A stretch of 54,321 nt of DNA, taken from Kaistia terrae (GTDB lineage: Bacteria > Pseudomonadota > Alphaproteobacteria > Rhizobiales > Kaistiaceae). Location of the stretch: contig NZ_JAPKNH010000017.1 of the NCBI RefSeq assembly GCF_026344005.1, forward strand, positions 1 to 54,321, in the 5' to 3' direction. The position numbers and the translations under genes were made by a program. Under the pieces are notes generated by a model that was not told the DNA's origin, searched no databases, and worked only from the letters and a program-made list of their open reading frames with translations. This document shows positions 45,574-54,321 of this stretch, one piece after another (position 1 is the stretch's first letter; every line of letters begins with the position of its first letter).

Positions 45574-47073
45574 TCAGATGGTCTGGTTGTAGGCGCCGAC
45601 TTCCGGATTCTCGCGCAGCGTCTCGTCGACGGCCTTGAACATTTCGCGCATCCGCGCTTCCGAAACCGGGCTTTCGACGACGACGACCATTTCCGGCTTG
45701 TTCGACGAAGCGCGGACGAGGCCCCAGGTGCCGTCCTCGTTGACGACGCGCACGCCGTTGACGGTGATCAGATCGACGATCTTCTGGCCGGCGACGAGTT
45801 CGCCCTTGGCCCGCTTTTCCTCAAAGCGCGCGACCACCTTGTCGATGACGCCATACTTCTTTTCGTCGTCGCAATGTGGCGACATGGTCGGCGAGCCCCA
45901 GGTCTTGGGCAGCGCATCCTTCAGCTCGGCCATCGACCTGCCGGGGTTGCGATCGAGCATGTCGAGGATGGCGAAGGCGGAGACCAGGCCGTCGTCATAG
46001 CCACGGCCGATCGGCTGATTGAAGAAATAGTGGCCGGACTTTTCGAAGCCGGCGAGCGCGCCCAGCGCGTTGACGCGGCGCTTGAGATAGGAATGGCCGG
46101 TCTTCCAGTAATCAGTCTTCGCGCCATTGGCGAGCAGCACCGGATCGGTGGCGAACAGGCCGGTCGACTTGACGTCGACGACGAAGGTCGCGTTCGGATT
46201 GAGCGCCGAAAGGTCGCGCGCCAGCATCACGCCGACCTTGTCGGCAAAAATCTCGTCGCCGGTATTGTCGACGACGCCGCAGCGGTCGCCATCACCGTCA
46301 AAGCCGAGGCCAACCGCCGCGCCATGCTCCAGCACCGCATCGCGGATCGCGTGCAGCATCTTCATGTCTTCGGGGTTCGGATTGTAGCGCGGGAAGGTGA
46401 AATCGAGATTGGCATCCATCGGGATGACTTCGGCGCCGATCATCTCCAGCGCTTTCGGCGCGAAGGCGCCGGCCGTGCCGTTGCCGCAGGCGGCGATCAC
46501 CTTGATCGGGTGCTTCAGCTTCGGCCGGTTGGTGATATCGGCGAGATAGCGCGCCGGGAAGTTTTCATGGAAGACGTAAGCGCCGCCGCCGCGAAGATCG
46601 AAGGCGGCCGTCAGCACGAGCTCCTTCAGGCGGGTCATCTCGTCCGGGCCGAAGGTCAGCGGTCGCGCCGCGCCCATCTTGACGCCGGTCCAGCCATTCT
46701 CGTTATGCGAGGCCGTGACCATGGCGACGGCCGGCACGTCGAGATCGAACTGGGCAAAATAAGCCATCGGCGTCACCGCGAGGCCGATGTCATGCACCTT
46801 GACGCCGGATGCCATCAGCCCGGTGACGAGCGCCAGCTTGATCGAGGCGGAATAGGAACGGTAGTCGTGGCCGGTGACGAGCTCGCGCTTGACGCCCATC
46901 TCGCCGAGCAGCGTGCCGAGACCCATGCCGAGCGCCTGCACGCCCATCAGGTTGATCTCGTCGCCGAACAGCCAGCGCGCGTCATATTCCCGGAAGCCCG
47001 TCGGCTTCACCATCGGCTTCGATTCGAAGTCGTAGGTGTTCTGGACAAGCTTGGGCACCGGCGTCGGAAACAT
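45574..47073 (-). CDS. Phosphomannomutase/phosphoglucomutase
   Basis: The protein is 499 residues from the ATG at 47073, with GGGAG upstream. The alpha-D-phosphohexomutase signatures are TASHNENGWTGVKMG (phosphoserine loop), LGFDGDGDRCGVVD (metal loop), GFEKSGHYFF (sugar loop) and the phosphate-binding GLVRASSNKPEMVV near the C-terminus. It interconverts hexose 1- and 6-phosphates for nucleotide-sugar and polysaccharide synthesis. It is similar to the AlgC/ManB group, and the preferred sugar is not certain. Confidence 0.93.
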   Translation of the reverse strand: MFPTPVPKLVQNTYDFESKPMVKPTGFREYDARWLFGDEINLMGVQALGMGLGTLLGEMGVKRELVTGHDYRSYSASIKLALVTGLMASGVKVHDIGLAVTPMAYFAQFDLDVPAVAMVTASHNENGWTGVKMGAARPLTFGPDEMTRLKELVLTAAFDLRGGGAYVFHENFPARYLADITNRPKLKHPIKVIAACGNGTAGAFAPKALEMIGAEVIPMDANLDFTFPRYNPNPEDMKMLHAIRDAVLEHGAAVGLGFDGDGDRCGVVDNTGDEIFADKVGVMLARDLSALNPNATFVVDVKSTGLFATDPVLLANGAKTDYWKTGHSYLKRRVNALGALAGFEKSGHYFFNQPIGRGYDDGLVSAFAILDMLDRNPGRSMAELKDALPKTWGSPTMSPHCDDEKKYGVIDKVVARFEEKRAKGELVAGQKIVDLITVNGVRVVNEDGTWGLVRASSNKPEMVVVVESPVSEARMREMFKAVDETLRENPEVGAYNQTI

Positions 47074-47353
47074 ACGAAACTCCCGTTCGAAACATCGGGT
47101 CGGAGAGTGGCGTGTAAATCGTTGCCAAAGCAACACTGCGCACGCGAGAACCGATGGAGAAGATAGGCCGGCACATGCGTCGGTCCTGTGTCGGGCGGGA
47201 TGGCGCGCGGTTCGTTGCGGACATGCGGCCAACTCGGTTTCCGTCGTCTTGACGCTAGCCGGCGCTCGCCCCTAACGTCCTGACGCCTCTTTTGGATTCC
47301 CGCCTTGCGGAGAGTCGAAAAGACCCTTTCCCGACCCGCATGGAGTTCGCCGC

Positions 47354-48313
47354 GTGGCCCAGAAGCTCATTCTCGACGTCGATACCGGAACCGATGACGC
47401 GGTCGCCATCATGCTGGCGGCGCTGCATCCGGCGATCGAGCTGATCGGCGTCACCACCGTCAACGGCAATGTCGAGGTCAAGTTCTGCACCGACAATACG
47501 CTGCGCGTCCTCGACCATATCGGTCGCTCCGATATCCCGGTTTATGAGGGGTCGAACCGTCCCTTCGTGCGCGACAATTTCCCGGTCGCGCGCGGCGTCA
47601 GCGACCAGGCTTCCAAATTCCATGTCGAGACGCTGCCGGTTCCGGCGGCGAAGTCGAAAAGGGCCGACAAGGGCGCCGTCGACTATCTGGTCGAGACCTA
47701 TCGCAATGCCAAGGAGCCGATCGTGCTGATGCCGGTCGGCCCGCTGACCAATATCGCGGCAGCCCTCGCCGCCGATCCGGATTTCGCCAAGCGCGTGCCG
47801 GAGCTGATCATCATGGGCGGCGGCCACGAGATCGGCAACATGACGCCCTCGGCGGAGTTCAATATCTGGGCTGATCCGGAAGCAGCCGCCCGCGTGTTCT
47901 CGGCCGGCTTCGAGAAGGTGACGCTGGTGACCCTCGACGCGACGCACCGGGCGCTGATTTCCTACGCCGATTGCGATCGCCTGAAGGCGCTGGGAACCCC
48001 GGCTGGTCAGGCAACGTCCGACATCGTCCGTTTCCGCATCGAGATGCACGACATCGCCCAGAAGATGGACGTGCTCGGCACCGCGCCGGTGCATGACGCC
48101 GTCTGCGTCGCCTATCTGGTCAATCGCGACGTGCTGACGACGCGCCATCTGCACGTCGATGTCGAGACCGGCGGCGCGCTGACGGTCGGCCGCACGGTGA
48201 TCGACACGCATTTCCGCGGCAACCGCGCCCCGAACGCCCACGTCGCCTTCGACGCCGACACCACGCTCTTCGTCGACATGCTCGCCGAAATCTTTGCCCG
48301 CCCGCACGGGTAG
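47354..48313 (+). CDS. Nucleoside hydrolase (inosine/uridine-preferring type)
   Basis: The protein is 319 residues starting at GTG 47354. The calcium-binding cluster LILDVDTGTDDAVA is at the N-terminus (Asp8, Asp10, Asp14, Asp15). The other active-site segments are GPLTNIAAALAADP, IMGGGHEIGNMTPSAEFNIWADPEAA and the C-terminal PVHDAVCVAYL with the catalytic His-Asp pair. It cleaves the N-glycosidic bond of nucleosides to base and ribose. The base specificity cannot be told. Confidence 0.93.
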   Translation: MAQKLILDVDTGTDDAVAIMLAALHPAIELIGVTTVNGNVEVKFCTDNTLRVLDHIGRSDIPVYEGSNRPFVRDNFPVARGVSDQASKFHVETLPVPAAKSKRADKGAVDYLVETYRNAKEPIVLMPVGPLTNIAAALAADPDFAKRVPELIIMGGGHEIGNMTPSAEFNIWADPEAAARVFSAGFEKVTLVTLDATHRALISYADCDRLKALGTPAGQATSDIVRFRIEMHDIAQKMDVLGTAPVHDAVCVAYLVNRDVLTTRHLHVDVETGGALTVGRTVIDTHFRGNRAPNAHVAFDADTTLFVDMLAEIFARPHG

Positions 48314-48334
48314 GGCAGTAGGCCGAGCTCTGTC

Positions 48335-48424
48335 TTCACCTCTCCCTGAGGGAGAGGTCGGAGCGGAGCTCCGGGTGAGGGTTTAGGGAACTATCGGGTG
48401 AGGTCGTAAACCCTCACCCGCCGC
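48335..48424. repeat. Long palindromic repeat, family R1 (copy d, right end missing)
   Basis: It starts with CACCTCTCCCTGAGGGAGAGG and GGAGCTCCGGGTGAGGGTTTA, in the same orientation as copy c, but ends after ACCCTCACCCGCCG without the second CCTCTCCC arm. An R3 element follows at once. Confidence 0.75.
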
Positions 48425-48448
48425 ACGCAGCCGCCAGCCCCAAACTCC

Positions 48449-48552
48449 GGCGTCATCCTCGCGTAGGCGAGGATCCATTCAGCCGGGTTTCCGGGAGTTT
48501 CACGCGAAAAAACCTCGGCTGCATGGGTCCCGGGTCAAGCCCGGGATGACGG
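48449..48552. repeat. Palindromic intergenic repeat, family R3
   Basis: The ends GCGTCATCCTCGCG and GGGATGACGGC are partly complementary. Internal hairpins CTCGCGTAGGCGAG and CCCGGGTCAAGCCCGGG are visible. It lies between the nucleoside hydrolase and the convergent urocanase-like gene. Confidence 0.7.
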
Positions 48553-48590
48553 CGAGGGTGGGGCAGGGGACGGTGGACGGATGATGTCGA

Positions 48591-50261
48591 TCACCCCCGC
48601 CGGACCACCTTTTCCGACGGCACGTCAAACCGCTGGATGCCCTTCGCCGCCGCTTCGTCGAGCGCGTCCTCATAGCCGGCGTCGGCATAGCGCATGACAC
48701 CGAGCGAGGTGTCGTTGGTGAGCGCGCGCGAAAGGCGCTCGCCGGCAGCCGGGGTGCCGTCCGCGACCAGCGTCACGCCGGCCGAGGTCATGTAGCCGGC
48801 ATAGCCGCCGCCGCCCGAATGCACGGTGACGAGATCGGCGCCGGAAGCCGACAGCGCCATCGCGTCGAGCAGCGGCCAGTCGGCGATCGCATCGGAACCA
48901 TCGCGAAGATTCTCGGTCATGATGTTGGGATGCGCCATCGCACCGGCATCGAGGTGATCGCGGGAGAAGGCAATCGGGCCTGACAGCGCGCCCGCCGCCA
49001 CCATGTCGTTGACGGCGAGCGCCAGCTCGGTGCGCGCGCCATGGCCGAGCCAGGCGATCCGTGCCGGCAGCCCCTCGAACGGTACGTTTTCCCGCGCCAG
49101 CCTAATCCAGTTGGTGACGATCTGGTTGTCGGGAAAGCGTTCCAGCACGAGATCGTCGATGCGGCGGATGTCGTCGGGATCGTTGGAGAGCGCCATCCAG
49201 CGGAACGGCCCGATGGCGCGGGCGAACAGCGGCCGCAGATAGGCTTCGGTGAAGATCGGGATGTCGAAGGCGTTTTCGACGCCCGCCTCGCGCGCCTGGG
49301 TGCGGATCAGATTGCCGTTGTCGAACACGACCGAGCCGTGCTTCTGGAAATCGAGCATAGCGCGGACATGCGGGACGATGGACGCGCGCGAAAGCGCCAT
49401 GAGTTTCGCCGGATCGCTTTGCCGCAACGCCCGAACCTCGGCGAGGGAGATGCCAGCCGGCACATAGCCATAGACGAGGTCATGCGCCGAGGTCTGGTCG
49501 GTGACGATGTCGGGATAGATGCCGCGCCGGAAGATTTCTGGATAGATCTCGGCGGCGTTGCCGACGAGCGCCACCGACAGCGCCTCGCGATGATGGCGTG
49601 CGTGGGCGATGCGCTGCAGCGCGGTGTCGAGGTCGGGCGCGATCTCGTCGACATAGCCGATCGCCTTGCGCTTTTCCGCCCGCTCGGAATCGACGTCGAC
49701 GGTGAGGATGGCGGCATTGGCCATGCGGCCGGCCAGTGGCTGCGACCCGCCCATGCCGCCGAGGCCGGCGGTCAGGATGAAGCGGCCCCGGAGATCGCCG
49801 CCGAAATGCTTCTCGGCGATGCGCATGAAGATCTCGTAGGTGCCCTGGATGACGCCCTGGCTGCCGATATATTGCCAGGCGCCGGCGGTCAGCCCACCCC
49901 AGCAGATCAGCCCCTTCTGCTCCAGCTCGTAGAAATATTCGGCCTTCGCCCATTGGCCGACGATGTTGCAATTGGCCATGATGACGATCGGCGCCTGGAC
50001 CTGCGTCTTCAAAATGCCGATCGGCTTGCCGGACTGGACGATCAGCGTTTCGTCCTCGTCCATGGTCTTCAGAGCCCGGACGATGGCGTCATGCGCCGCC
50101 CAGTTGCGCGCTGCCTTGCCGAGCGCCGCATAGACGATCAGGCTGTCCGGATCCTCGCCGACCGAGAGCACGTTTTCCAAGAGCCGCAGCAGGCCCTCCT
50201 GCCGCCAGCCCTTGCAGCGCAGCGTCGTTCCCGAGGTGACGGGATAGCGGGGATTCGGCAT
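48591..50261 (-). CDS. Urocanase homologue, candidate (S-methyl-)thiourocanate hydratase
   Basis: The protein is 556 residues from the ATG at 50261, the full length of urocanate hydratase, and the NAD-binding core is kept (LTAGLGGMGGSQPLAGRMA and RDHLDAGAMAHPN). Several active-site motifs differ from what I recall of authentic HutU. YGGIG near Tyr52 is YAALG here (Tyr44). The PARICW motif holding Cys410 is PARIAW (Ala403). LHHGGGVGMGFSQHSG is VHSGGGGYAGYMTSAG (from Val480). It is the last gene of an operon with a DUF917 protein, a carbamoylase and a hydantoinase-like enzyme. Hydration of thiourocanate or S-methyl thiourocanate in ergothioneine breakdown fits better than histidine degradation. 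Plain urocanase activity is not excluded. Confidence 0.82.
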   Translation of the reverse strand: MPNPRYPVTSGTTLRCKGWRQEGLLRLLENVLSVGEDPDSLIVYAALGKAARNWAAHDAIVRALKTMDEDETLIVQSGKPIGILKTQVQAPIVIMANCNIVGQWAKAEYFYELEQKGLICWGGLTAGAWQYIGSQGVIQGTYEIFMRIAEKHFGGDLRGRFILTAGLGGMGGSQPLAGRMANAAILTVDVDSERAEKRKAIGYVDEIAPDLDTALQRIAHARHHREALSVALVGNAAEIYPEIFRRGIYPDIVTDQTSAHDLVYGYVPAGISLAEVRALRQSDPAKLMALSRASIVPHVRAMLDFQKHGSVVFDNGNLIRTQAREAGVENAFDIPIFTEAYLRPLFARAIGPFRWMALSNDPDDIRRIDDLVLERFPDNQIVTNWIRLARENVPFEGLPARIAWLGHGARTELALAVNDMVAAGALSGPIAFSRDHLDAGAMAHPNIMTENLRDGSDAIADWPLLDAMALSASGADLVTVHSGGGGYAGYMTSAGVTLVADGTPAAGERLSRALTNDTSLGVMRYADAGYEDALDEAAAKGIQRFDVPSEKVVRRG

Positions 50262-50279
50262 GGAAGAGGCCTCGCGGAT

Positions 50280-50397
50280 CAAGGGTGCGTGCTTCGAGGC
50301 CACCCTGCGGGCGGCACCTCGGCATGATGGACAATGGGATTTGCAAAACCAGCCCCCATCCGGCTGAGGTGCGAACGCAGCGAGCCTCGAAGACTCG
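50280..50397. repeat. Palindromic repeat, family R2-like, inside operon
   Basis: GTGCTTCGAGGC...GGCACCTCGGCATGATGG on the left and CCGGCTGAGGTGCGAACGCAGCGAGCCTCGAAG on the right are complementary in blocks. It sits between the DUF917 gene and the urocanase-like gene, separating otherwise packed genes. Confidence 0.6.
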
Positions 50398-51531
50398 CTA
50401 CTTCTTCTTCCGCTTCTTCTTCGCCTCGTCGGCAAATACATAGCGCGCGATCTCAATGCCCATCGCCGCCTCGACCGGCGGATAGACGGAGGGGTCGAGC
50501 ACGCCGGCCGAGAGCGGGATGATCGCCTTGGGCACATGCAGCACATGCACGGTCATGCCGACGCTGAGTTGGCCGACCGAAAGCGGCTCGCCGTCCTTGT
50601 CGAGCGTGGTGATGACATCCGGGAAGGTGGCGAGCCGGGCGCCGCCGGCATCGTCGATCGCCATGTACTCGTTCATCACATGTAGCGTCACCGCCTTGTC
50701 GCCGGCGCCGATGACGACGGTGCCGATGTCGAAGGCGGCGTTGGTATAGACGACGTCCTTTTTCGCGATCCGGCCGGAAACGGCGATATGGCCGCCGGTC
50801 GCCTTGCAGATCGCATCGATGACGGCGGTGGCGCTGCCCCGGCCGCTGCCCTTGCCTTCCGCCGCGAGGATCGCCTCGCCCAGCGAAAGCGCCATCGAGA
50901 TGCCGCCAAGCGCCGCGTTCTTGCGCACATAGGAAGCGCGAACCGGATTGCGGGCCGAGGCGATGAAGCCCCCCGACATGTCGGATGCCGTGCGCAGGAT
51001 CGGCGACACCTTGGCCGTCGCGCCGCGCACCACCAGCTCGATATAGCGGTTGTCGGCGCGGTTGCCGCCGACGGCCGTCTGGATTGTTGCTTCCGGCGAG
51101 GCAGCCAGCCCGATCGAGCCCATGTCGCCGGTCGGATGCGCGCGGATGTCGCCGACCGCGTCGAGCACCTTGGTGCCGAGGATGGCGGAGGGCAGCCAGC
51201 CATTCAGCGTCGACGAGCGGCCGTTCTGGCCGACCATCAGCGCCGTGATCGTTTCGCCAAGCGCCTCTTGCAGAAGCCGCACGGCGTTCACATAGTCGAC
51301 GCCCTGCATTTCCCAGGCGGTGGTTCCGGCCGGCGCGCCGATGGCGGCGGCGGTGGCCACCCAGTCATTCTTGTCGAGTTCGTCGACCGTGACCAGTTCC
51401 GGCTTGCCGATCCGTACGGCGGCGAGCCCCAGCATCCGGCCGTGATCGGCCCAGCCGCCGCCACCGGCCGCGTAGACGGAGCCGCCGCGCACGGCGGGTT
51501 CGACGTCTTTTTCGGTCAGGATGCGGCCCAT
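50398..51531 (-). CDS. DUF917 family protein, candidate (S-methyl) thiohydantoin desulfurase
   Basis: The protein is 377 residues covering both halves of DUF917: the N-terminal GGSVYAAGGGGWADHGRMLGL through GDMGSIGLAASPEATIQTAVG, and the C-terminal YTNAAFDIGTVVIGAGD through SVGMTVHVLHVPKAIIPLSAGVLDPSVYPPVE. It ends in a lysine-rich tail. The family was formerly of unknown function and is now associated with removal of sulfur from (S-methyl) thiohydantoins. It lies between the carbamoylase and urocanase-like genes. The inferred step converts the thiohydantoin propionate to hydantoin-5-propionate. The precise substrate needs testing. Confidence 0.8.
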   Translation of the reverse strand: MGRILTEKDVEPAVRGGSVYAAGGGGWADHGRMLGLAAVRIGKPELVTVDELDKNDWVATAAAIGAPAGTTAWEMQGVDYVNAVRLLQEALGETITALMVGQNGRSSTLNGWLPSAILGTKVLDAVGDIRAHPTGDMGSIGLAASPEATIQTAVGGNRADNRYIELVVRGATAKVSPILRTASDMSGGFIASARNPVRASYVRKNAALGGISMALSLGEAILAAEGKGSGRGSATAVIDAICKATGGHIAVSGRIAKKDVVYTNAAFDIGTVVIGAGDKAVTLHVMNEYMAIDDAGGARLATFPDVITTLDKDGEPLSVGQLSVGMTVHVLHVPKAIIPLSAGVLDPSVYPPVEAAMGIEIARYVFADEAKKKRKKK

Positions 51532-51550
51532 GGCGTTTCTTCCCCTTTGG

Positions 51551-52810
51551 CTAGGCGAGCATTTTGTCGAGGCGGAGCACGGTCTCGTGCAGCACGGCGG
51601 CGCCGGCGGCGATCTCGCCCGGCTCCGACCATTCTTCCGGCGTGTGGCTGCGCCCGTCCTTGGACGGGATGAAGATCATCGCCGAGGGCGCAACGCGTGA
51701 AAACCAGGCCATGTCATGGCCGGCGCCCGACGCCATGCGGCGCGGCCCGAGGCCCAACGCCTCGGTCGATTGTTCCAGAACGTCGAGCAGCAGCGGATCG
51801 GAAAGCGCCGGGCGGTTGTCGGAAATGGCGCGGAATTCCGTGATCCGCGCGCCCGTGCCGGACATGGCGCGCAAGATCAGCGGCTGCAGTTCGGCGACAA
51901 AACCTTCCATGAAGCTCCGTTCCTCGGCGCGCGTATCAACCAGCAGCGTCACCCGGTTCGGCACAACATTGGCGGCGTTGGGTTCGACACGGAATTCGCC
52001 GACGGTAGCGACGAAGTGGCCGTGCCCTGCCTTGGCCCGGCGGCGCGCATCCTTGGCAATGACCGAGACGGCGGCGGCGGCCCCGGCCAGCGCATCCTGG
52101 CGCACATGCATCGGCGTCGTGCCGGCATGGTCGGCCCGGCCCTCGATGACGATTTCCAGCCGCGTGATGCCTGCGATCGCTGTGACGATGCCGATGTCGA
52201 GGCGCTCGTCCTCAAGAACCGGACCCTGCTCGATATGCATCTCAAGATAGGCGGCGATGTCGCCGCGCTGGGCCTCGTCCAGATAGGCGGCGTCGCCTCC
52301 CATGCGATCGATGGCGTCGCGCAGGATCTCGCCCGATTCCGGCGCCGCGCGATCGAGCTGGTCGGCTTTCAACTTCCCGCAAATGGCGCGGCTGCCGATG
52401 CAGGAAAGGCCGAAGATGGAAACCTCTTCCGCCAGGCAGTCGATCACCTCGAACGGATGGTCCAGCTCCGTGCCGTCGCGCTGGAAGCTGCGGGCGACGG
52501 CGATGCCGGCCATGACGCCAGCCGTGCCGTCGAAGCGGCCGCCATCCGGCACGGTGTCGCTGTGCGAGCCGATGACAATGGCCTTGTGTTCGGAAAAGCG
52601 ACCTTCGCGCCGGCCGATCATGTTGCCGGCGGCGTCGAGCCGAACGGTGAGCCCCGCCTCGCGCATTCGCCCGGCGACGAAGGCACGGCCTTCGAGGAAC
52701 ACCGTTGAAAAGGCACGGCGAGTCCAGGGCCGCTCCGGTTCGGTGATGGTGGCGAGCACCATCAGATCGTTCCAGAGCTCCGTCTCGTCGATCGGCAGGT
52801 TGTTGCGCAT
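51551..52810 (-). CDS. M20-type N-carbamoyl-L-amino acid hydrolase (candidate N-carbamoylglutamate amidohydrolase)
   Basis: The protein is 419 residues from the ATG at 52810, 7 bases after the upstream stop. It is a hydantoinase/carbamoylase-family zinc amidohydrolase. The metal ligands are in GSHSDTVPDGGRFDGTAGV (His and Asp), CLAEEVSIFG (Glu), EMHIEQGPVLE (His) and SGAGHDMAW (His). The lid-domain motif is RADHAGTTPMHVRQDALAGAA. It removes the carbamoyl group from N-carbamoyl amino acids or allantoate. In this operon N-carbamoyl-L-glutamate is the expected substrate, releasing glutamate. Confidence 0.88.
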   Translation of the reverse strand: MRNNLPIDETELWNDLMVLATITEPERPWTRRAFSTVFLEGRAFVAGRMREAGLTVRLDAAGNMIGRREGRFSEHKAIVIGSHSDTVPDGGRFDGTAGVMAGIAVARSFQRDGTELDHPFEVIDCLAEEVSIFGLSCIGSRAICGKLKADQLDRAAPESGEILRDAIDRMGGDAAYLDEAQRGDIAAYLEMHIEQGPVLEDERLDIGIVTAIAGITRLEIVIEGRADHAGTTPMHVRQDALAGAAAAVSVIAKDARRRAKAGHGHFVATVGEFRVEPNAANVVPNRVTLLVDTRAEERSFMEGFVAELQPLILRAMSGTGARITEFRAISDNRPALSDPLLLDVLEQSTEALGLGPRRMASGAGHDMAWFSRVAPSAMIFIPSKDGRSHTPEEWSEPGEIAAGAAVLHETVLRLDKMLA

Positions 52811-52817
52811 AAAGGGT

Positions 52818-54191
52818 TCAGATCTCGATCGGCAGAGTGGGGGGAGGCCGTACGAAACGTCCGAAGCCGGGTTGGGCCAGGACGTCGCGTCCGTCGAAGG
52901 CCTGGATTCCGCGCACAAACGTGCCGCTCACCCGCCAGGGAAGCGTCATGCCGTGATACGGACTCCAGCCCACCACATTATGCCCACTCGCCGCCGCATC
53001 ATAGAGCGCCGGCTCATGAGTCAGCACGGCGATATCGGCGTCCTTGCCGACCTCCAGCGCGCCCTTCTCGTGATCGATACGGAAATGGCGGGCGGGGTTT
53101 TTCGCCATCAGCCGCGCAGCCCATGTCAGCGGCAGGCCGCGTTCCAGCGCGCCCTTGATGAAGAGCGGCAGCATGACTTCGAGCCCCGGCACGCCGGAGG
53201 CGTTGTCGAGCATGGCGGGCTTGGTCTTGCGGTCCTCCGACCAGGAAACGTGATCGGTCGAGACCAGCGTGACGTTGCCGAGCGCCAGTTGTCGCCACAG
53301 CGCCTCAACCTCGGCGCGCGGCCGGATCGGCGGGTTGATCTTGGCCTTGCCGCCCAGCCGGCAGACGTCGTTTTCCTCGTCCAGCGTCAGGTAATGGATG
53401 CAGACTTCCACCGTTGCCGCATGCCCCTCGGCCCGGTAGCGCGCCGCCAGCTCCGCCCCGCGCGCCAGCGACGAATGCACGACATGCGCCGGGCAGCCGG
53501 TCAGCGCCCCGGTCTCGAAAATCTCGACATCGGCGAGCAGTTCGGTGATCGGCGGCCGCGACAGGCCATGCGCCCGCCAGTCGGTGATGCCGGAAGCGCG
53601 GACGCGGGCCATATGCGCGTCGACCGCTTCGTGAATCTCGTTATGGACGCCGGCCGTCAGCCCGGTCGGCGCGATCGCGGCAAAGCAATCGGCGAGCAGC
53701 GCCGGAGGAATGCGTGGAAAGCGCTTTGCGTCGGTGCCGAAGGTGGAAAATTTGAACGCGGCGACGCCGGCTGCCACCATTTCGCGGATGCGCGCGGTGC
53801 CTTCCTGCGGGTCGATGGTGCCATAAAGCGCAAAGTCGACGCGCGCCTGCGGTCCGGCATGGTCGAGCTTTCGTTGCACCGCCTCTGCCGAGCAGACGAG
53901 ATTGCCCTCGTCATAGGGCATGTCGACGATGGTGGTGACGCCGCCGGCCGCCGCCGAGCGGGTCGACCAGATGAAGTCTTCCTGGTCTTTCTGGCTCAGC
54001 GAATGCACTTGGGCGTCGATGGCGCCGGGCAGGATCAGCGCGTTTCCTAACGCGTGTTTTTCGCGCGCCGAGGGCGCTTCGCCCTGGCCGACCATGGCGA
54101 TCTTGCCGTCGCGCACGGCGACAAAGCCGCCTTCGATGACGCGTTCGGCGGTGACGACGGTTCCGGAAAGGACGAGATCGAAATCGCTCAT
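52818..54191 (-). CDS. Hydantoinase/allantoinase-like cyclic amidohydrolase with QxH metal motif
   Basis: The protein is 457 residues and a dihydropyrimidinase/allantoinase-type amidohydrolase. The beta-1 metal motif, normally HxH, reads DAQVHS (Gln61, His63). The other ligand positions are kept: Lys147 (FKFSTF, the lysine usually carbamylated), His183 (GVHNE), His239 (AHVVHSS) and Asp313 (STDHVSW). The AxxGGxTTIVDMP block is present. In the operon it should open the ring of hydantoin-5-propionate to N-carbamoylglutamate. The missing first His suggests a single or altered metal centre. It is the first gene of the operon visible in the window. Further upstream genes may lie beyond the right edge. 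Confidence 0.87.
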   Translation of the reverse strand: MSDFDLVLSGTVVTAERVIEGGFVAVRDGKIAMVGQGEAPSAREKHALGNALILPGAIDAQVHSLSQKDQEDFIWSTRSAAAGGVTTIVDMPYDEGNLVCSAEAVQRKLDHAGPQARVDFALYGTIDPQEGTARIREMVAAGVAAFKFSTFGTDAKRFPRIPPALLADCFAAIAPTGLTAGVHNEIHEAVDAHMARVRASGITDWRAHGLSRPPITELLADVEIFETGALTGCPAHVVHSSLARGAELAARYRAEGHAATVEVCIHYLTLDEENDVCRLGGKAKINPPIRPRAEVEALWRQLALGNVTLVSTDHVSWSEDRKTKPAMLDNASGVPGLEVMLPLFIKGALERGLPLTWAARLMAKNPARHFRIDHEKGALEVGKDADIAVLTHEPALYDAAASGHNVVGWSPYHGMTLPWRVSGTFVRGIQAFDGRDVLAQPGFGRFVRPPPTLPIEI

Positions 54192-54321
54192 GCTGTCACC
54201 GGGCGGTTGTTGCGGTTCAGGGCCTTGGGGCGGCGTGCGTGGTTCGAGACGCAGCCTTCCGGCCGCTCCTCACCATGTTGAAGGTTTTGGTGGGGGAGAG
54301 GAAGGCTGGAGAGAAGACCAA
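54192..54321. other. Right edge, upstream region of the operon
   Basis: No gene is recognised in the last 130 bases. They lie upstream of the amidohydrolase gene and may hold the operon promoter or the intergenic space to a preceding gene. No clear promoter is seen. Confidence 0.4.

Follow-up and report, generated by a model that had tools for sequence, protein, structure and literature searches.

The window (the whole stretch of DNA that was analysed, from Kaistia terrae) is the entire contig C9 of 54321 bases, and towards its right end four open reading frames (ORFs) follow one another on the minus strand from 54191 to 48591, in the order ErtD, ErtE, desulfurase and hydratase. Judged from sequence, these four genes very probably belong to the ergothioneine utilisation (ert) operon of a Kaistia-type alphaproteobacterium and make up its lower part. 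Their coordinates and predicted products are given below, together with the stretch that separates them from the contig end.

52818..54191, minus strand: ErtD, putative hydantoin-5-propionate amidohydrolase of the hydantoinase family, 457 amino acids (aa), NCBIfam NF058538
51551..52810, minus strand: ErtE, putative N-carbamyl-L-glutamate amidohydrolase (M20 carbamoylase), 419 aa, NCBIfam NF058540
50398..51531, minus strand: putative thiohydantoin desulfurase (former DUF917 / S-Me-THD family), 377 aa, NF058529, Pfam PF06032 and PF20906
48591..50261, minus strand: putative thiourocanate hydratase (urocanase family), 556 aa, NF058530, start set by homology
54192..54321, no strand: stretch 5′ of ErtD up to the contig end, with a partial match to the permease-ErtD spacer of relatives

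The intergenic gaps, from ErtD to the hydratase, are 7, 19 and 136 bp, and the ORF list thereby confirms what an earlier reading of this DNA (the original prediction) had described, namely four genes in this order on one strand with gaps of 7 bp and about 20 bp. Specifically, the start of ErtE was taken as 52810 (419 aa), its frame ending at 51551, and the start of the urocanase homologue in the mechanical ORF list, 50546, lies too far upstream, as the homologous proteins of relatives start with the residue encoded at 50261. Each of the expected Pfam domains scores above its cut-off: Amidohydro_1, Peptidase_M20, the S-Me-THD_N/C pair and the three urocanase domains.

Family membership was assessed with the June 2026 release of NCBIfam, using the equivalog cut-offs as pass mark. 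ErtD scores 772.8 bits against NF058538 (cut-off 600), ErtE 582.2 bits against NF058540 (cut-off 520), the desulfurase 577.7 bits against the thio model NF058529 (cut-off 440) and the hydratase 1042.3 bits against the thio model NF058530 (cut-off 930). Both the proposed one candidate per lower-pathway step and the reading of the DUF917 protein as a desulfurase are thus upheld, the former by four scores over ergothioneine-branch cut-offs and the latter by the curated model NF058529. Related loci were collected by a pattern search with 535 hits. A desulfurase relative is encoded at 456 of them, and of the 80 best, which were retained, 74 show the order ErtD-ErtE-desulfurase-hydratase. Chance can be excluded as an explanation, because the best NCBIfam scores (578-1042 bits) all exceed equivalog cut-offs and the order is so widely repeated. 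The same figures do not support the 'new order or specificity' that had been suggested, since most of the loci found share the order and the top-scoring models belong to the known thio branch. Within ErtE, the residues H83, D94, E128, E129, H192 and H389, which we take to be the metal and catalytic positions, are invariant in 88/88 rows. Among structures, the chain nearest to the hydratase is 7ned (789 bits), followed by 1x87 (624) and 8q9u (605), with PDB molecule names of urocanate hydratase; 7ned is presumably a thiourocanate hydratase and 8q9u the S-methyl type.

The position of the urocanase homologue was examined in a tree of 35 rows, in which the window protein was joined by 18 selected ert-locus urocanases, 15 rows with lower scores and one S-methyl type (L133). 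The window protein and the 18 ert rows share one branch (support 100/100), and another branch (100/97) separates off the 15 lower-scoring rows. The latter were taken as HutU, only L025 being so named by a model, and the exact places of L133 and L025 are unsure because of their long branches. Grouping with HutU had been named in advance as evidence against the ergothioneine route; in the tree the window protein stands with the ert rows, and both the HutU-like rows and the S-methyl-type row stand apart.

The lyase and transporter had been predicted to lie outside the window, and indeed they are missing from it because the contig ends at 54321, only 130 bases upstream of ErtD; candidates for both were found on contig C36. 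The only aromatic-lyase match in the genome (C36:177581-179149, equal to L037:12582-14150) reads GSIGAADIG at the position of the 4-methylideneimidazol-5-one (MIO) cofactor, one residue fewer than in enzymes with Ala-Ser-Gly, as histidine ammonia-lyases (HALs) have there, and the same holds for the ergothionase 6s7j (SSIGEGDI). The MIO triad is missing in 78/78 lyase rows from ert loci (those longer than 430 aa), and among three HAL-like comparison rows two carry it and one (L046b) does not. At L046:13739-15124 in genome G009, the second of two HAL-like genes that lie near each other lacks the triad (GSVGY, then a gap), and the other carries it. A profile built from 18 ert-locus lyases places ergothionase 6s7j at the top with 251.5 bits, the next match having 210.5. 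The predicted model of the lyase has a mean predicted local distance difference test (pLDDT) value of 81.5, with the MIO loop (155-160) below 50, and among the 50 Foldseek rows listed the highest template modelling (TM) scores belong to 6s7j_A (0.85 and 0.89, root-mean-square deviation 3.1); in the Foldseek alignment the lyase is 26% identical to the ergothionase of T. denticola. According to a published article, ergothionase works without MIO and yields trimethylamine and thiourocanic acid (PMC13405746). From sequence comparison and the predicted model, the assignment of the lyase as an ergothionase appears good, yet weaker than the assignments of the window genes.

Downstream of this lyase lies a candidate importer.

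L037:14214-18158 (contig C36), 3′ of the lyase: OsmF-type betaine ATP-binding cassette (ABC) transporter, made up of an OsmF binding protein, a permease, a ProV-like ATPase and a second permease

The binding protein passes NF049931 (508 against a cut-off of 400) and scores 475 bits to 5teu versus 107.6 to EgtUC (9egi), which by overall score makes it OsmF-like and not a member of the EgtU group. Contig C36 ends 247 bases past the second permease. Thirteen same-genus genomes were compared, with a hydratase over the cut-off in five (G002, G003, G010, G011 and G012) and fragments in G007, and in 5/5 of the former the genes run on one strand in the order lyase, binding protein, permease, ATPase, permease, ErtD, ErtE, desulfurase, hydratase. 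Because the lyase-transporter block lies directly upstream of ErtD in all five, the end of C36 most likely adjoins the end of the window contig. The permease-ErtD spacer ranges from about 115 to 785 bp in these genomes and contains repeats common to other places in the loci; the repeats at the two contig ends (L037:18159-18405 and window 54192-54321) recur at several sites, on either strand, in the loci of relatives. Such spacer repeats are a plausible and likely cause of the break in the assembly.

Among the other relatives over the cut-off, G032 has the same lyase-transporter block, and G049 has the lyase without the transporter. A lyase match lies upstream in 71 of the 80 related loci, an OsmF-type binding protein being present as well in 7. 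An ErtD match is missing at the ert loci L088, L101, L114, L119 and L125, the last of which also has no ErtE match; the ring-opening enzyme of such loci may be encoded elsewhere. The cluster is patchy, as the desulfurase is over its cut-off in only 6/398 genomes of an even sample of the phylum that includes the genome of the window, and a second ErtD type (NF058539) passes in 0/398.

What was observed, namely which genes are present, the curated families and the clade to which they belong, the synteny in relatives and the missing MIO triad, would fit the following route. The OsmF-type ABC importer would take up ergothioneine, from which the MIO-less, HAL-fold lyase (ergothionase) would eliminate trimethylamine to give thiourocanate. 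The urocanase homologue would then add water to form thiohydantoin-propionate, and the DUF917 enzyme would exchange sulfur for oxygen, giving hydantoin-5-propionate. ErtD would open the ring of this compound to produce N-carbamoyl-L-glutamate, and ErtE would finally remove the carbamoyl group and release L-glutamate. Lower ergothioneine catabolism, the core of the original prediction, is in this way supported by curated models, tree, synteny and the recovered candidates for lyase and transporter.

One protein of this route has an unusual feature. By alignment to 1gkr and 1nfg, the metal positions of ErtD are Q61, H63, K147, H183, H239 and D313, which we assume to be metal ligands. Gln61 (window 54009-54011) replaces the first histidine of the HxH motif in 81/81 ErtD rows, the other five positions being canonical throughout, and the corresponding column is histidine in both 1gkr and 1nfg. 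A remote relative with 43% identity (L144) likewise reads QTH, and five remoter ones read HxH. There are precedents for such a loss: one paper mentions a QXN single-metal motif in NagA of Escherichia coli and Vibrio cholerae (PMC6016474), and another a mononuclear dihydroorotase (PMC3880350). It is possible, and put forward here as a tentative joint proposal, that the OsmF-type transporter which Kaistia and a few further Hyphomicrobiales encode between ErtD and the MIO-less lyase represents a second, non-EgtU class of ergothioneine importer, devoted to supplying catabolism, and that ErtD is a hydantoinase with an altered, possibly single-metal site in which QxH stands for HxH.

A number of observations weigh against the ergothioneine reading or parts of it. 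At the level of single proteins, ErtD is without one canonical metal histidine, the binding protein does not resemble that of EgtU, and two of the enzymes also pass models of another kind. Specifically, ErtE exceeds the unspecific Zn-dependent hydrolase model NF009531 (563 against 486) and is the least distinct assignment among the four by sequence, and the hydratase exceeds the general hutU model TIGR01228 (709.2 against 375), a model that does not discriminate here because hydratases of both the S-methyl and the thio type from other sources exceed its cut-off as well. For the lyase, a search with the single sequence gives a histidine ammonia-lyase a small lead over ergothionase (134.9 versus 130.6 bits), the lowest Foldseek E-value belongs to a histidine ammonia-lyase, and no ergothionase model responded in an NCBIfam scan. 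At the level of loci, G025, another relative over the cut-off, has neither a lyase nor a transporter match within the 19 kb fetched, and 9 of the 80 related loci have no lyase match; three of these (L049, L053 and L081) are cut by a contig end on the lyase side, and six (L082, L088, L106, L111, L114 and L119) are uncut there.

Three alternative readings were considered. The genes could serve S-methyl-ergothioneine, with the hydratase and the DUF917 enzyme acting on S-methylated intermediates and methanethiol being released, and both proteins are indeed homologous to the S-methyl enzymes. However, the hydratase reaches only 761.1 bits against NF058531 (cut-off 880) and the desulfurase 281.5 against NF058532 (cut-off 450), while both exceed the thio cut-offs, so that this route, which had been offered as an alternative from the start, is very unlikely. 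An alphaproteobacterial hydratase of the S-methyl type (L133), 51% identical to that of the window, gives the opposite pattern, passing the S-methyl model with 889.7 and failing the thio model with 695.8; the desulfurase of the same locus also scores higher on the S-methyl model (409.5, under the cut-off of 450) than on the thio model (261.8). Across 240 genomes of the class, none is over the cut-off of NF058532, the best having 409 bits. Alternatively, the urocanase could be a relocated HutU of histidine utilisation, accompanied by hydrolases of another (purine or pyrimidine) pathway, a reading to which the pass on the hutU model and the adjoining nucleoside hydrolase (47354-48313, opposite strand) lend something. 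Against it stand the urocanase tree, the MIO-less state of the sole aromatic-lyase match, the occurrence of the four genes together in 74/80 loci, the score of ErtD (773 bits against 260 for the best allantoinase model) and that of ErtE, just under the cut-off of the best-scoring allantoate amidohydrolase model (391.7 against 399). This explanation must be regarded as extremely improbable, and both it and the S-methyl one were rejected on scores, tree and synteny.

The remaining alternative is that 2-thiohistidine or a related thiol histidine with a primary amine loses its amino group and then feeds into the same lower pathway. Its support comes from another alphaproteobacterium (G146, contig C3), where L134:7084-11591 holds a HAL-like lyase with the MIO triad next to two genes whose products exceed the cut-offs for thiohydantoin desulfurase and thiourocanate hydratase. 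The lower route may therefore serve other amines, and L134 is possibly a thiohistidine (primary-amine) variant of it. In the genome of the window the lyase lacks the MIO triad and a betaine-type importer is encoded after it, features that suit a substrate with a trimethylammonium group, and we consider a primary-amine substrate barely conceivable there.

The original prediction had remarked that no hutH, hutI or hutG accompanies the urocanase homologue; this stands for hutH and can be extended, as no MIO-dependent HutH-type lyase was found in the genome and the genome-wide search returned a single urocanase match, hence no separate HutU, with HutI and HutG left outside the search. Ergothioneine synthesis in the same genome was considered and rejected, there being no EgtD match, a result with a weak control in that 0/14 control genomes exceeded the cut-off of that model. 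Two DUF917 genes on contig C12 were considered as further desulfurases and taken as another subfamily: tblastn with the window desulfurase gave nothing there at E 1e-6, and their first 157 residues, the only part scored, reach 43-44 and 41-43 bits on the two desulfurase models.

To the left of the four genes lie the nucleoside hydrolase, a phosphohexomutase and an aldose epimerase, with no evident role in the pathway. Within 47000-54321 no sigma-70-like promoter was found, and terminator-like sites are near chance (7 found, 5.5 expected). In a relative's operon (L038), no RNA element matched Rfam at gathering score. Two peculiarities of related loci may be mentioned here. A small gene of about 109 aa occurs between desulfurase and hydratase (e.g. 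L055:11102-11431 and L065:11111-11440; the two scanned are TfoX_N in Pfam), found in 45 of 78 ert loci by a motif search that could miss some; the space between the two genes in the window and in the Kaistia loci L048, L050 and L051 is too short to accommodate it. In G010, the 50 C-terminal residues of the hydratase are encoded a second time, separately and with 88% identity, at L041:4650-4799, downstream of the complete gene.

The picture that emerges is of an alphaproteobacterium seemingly equipped to eat ergothioneine without making it, and of a MIO-less lyase family and a candidate importer placed next to the lower pathway in relatives. If true, this would help to annotate ergothioneine turnover and the release of trimethylamine in bacteria from the environment. 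Among the papers searched, none ties ergothioneine catabolism to Rhizobium with nitrogen-source use, and those listed for ergothioneine with OsmF/YehZ were off topic by title.

Bacterial ergothioneine catabolism in five steps was reportedly described by Beliaeva, Leisinger and Seebeck in ACS Chem Biol in 2021. The pathway is thus already published and the gene order is common; what is added here are the lyase and importer candidates from another contig. As in that pathway, each of the four lower steps has its own gene here and an ergothionase-like lyase is encoded elsewhere in the genome, with no clear difference in chemistry but with a lyase that is remote from the solved ergothionase of T. 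denticola. In terms of the NCBIfam ert models, all four window proteins exceed the cut-offs of NF058530, NF058529, NF058538 and NF058540, no ergothionase model responding to the lyase, whereas the S-methyl branch (NF058531 and NF058532) uses the same enzyme families but leaves the window proteins below both cut-offs. The EgtU importer is reported to be nearly exclusive to Firmicutes (PMC9732360). The candidate found here is likewise an ABC importer of the betaine type, and its substrate-binding domain is homologous, but it differs in that its binding protein is encoded by a gene of its own and is OsmF-like by overall score; therefore, if it carries ergothioneine, it would belong to an importer class distinct from EgtU. 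The less familiar elements, in comparison with these known systems, are (i) the non-EgtU-like candidate importer, (ii) the glutamine of ErtD in place of the first metal histidine and (iii) the TfoX_N gene in the operon of some relatives.

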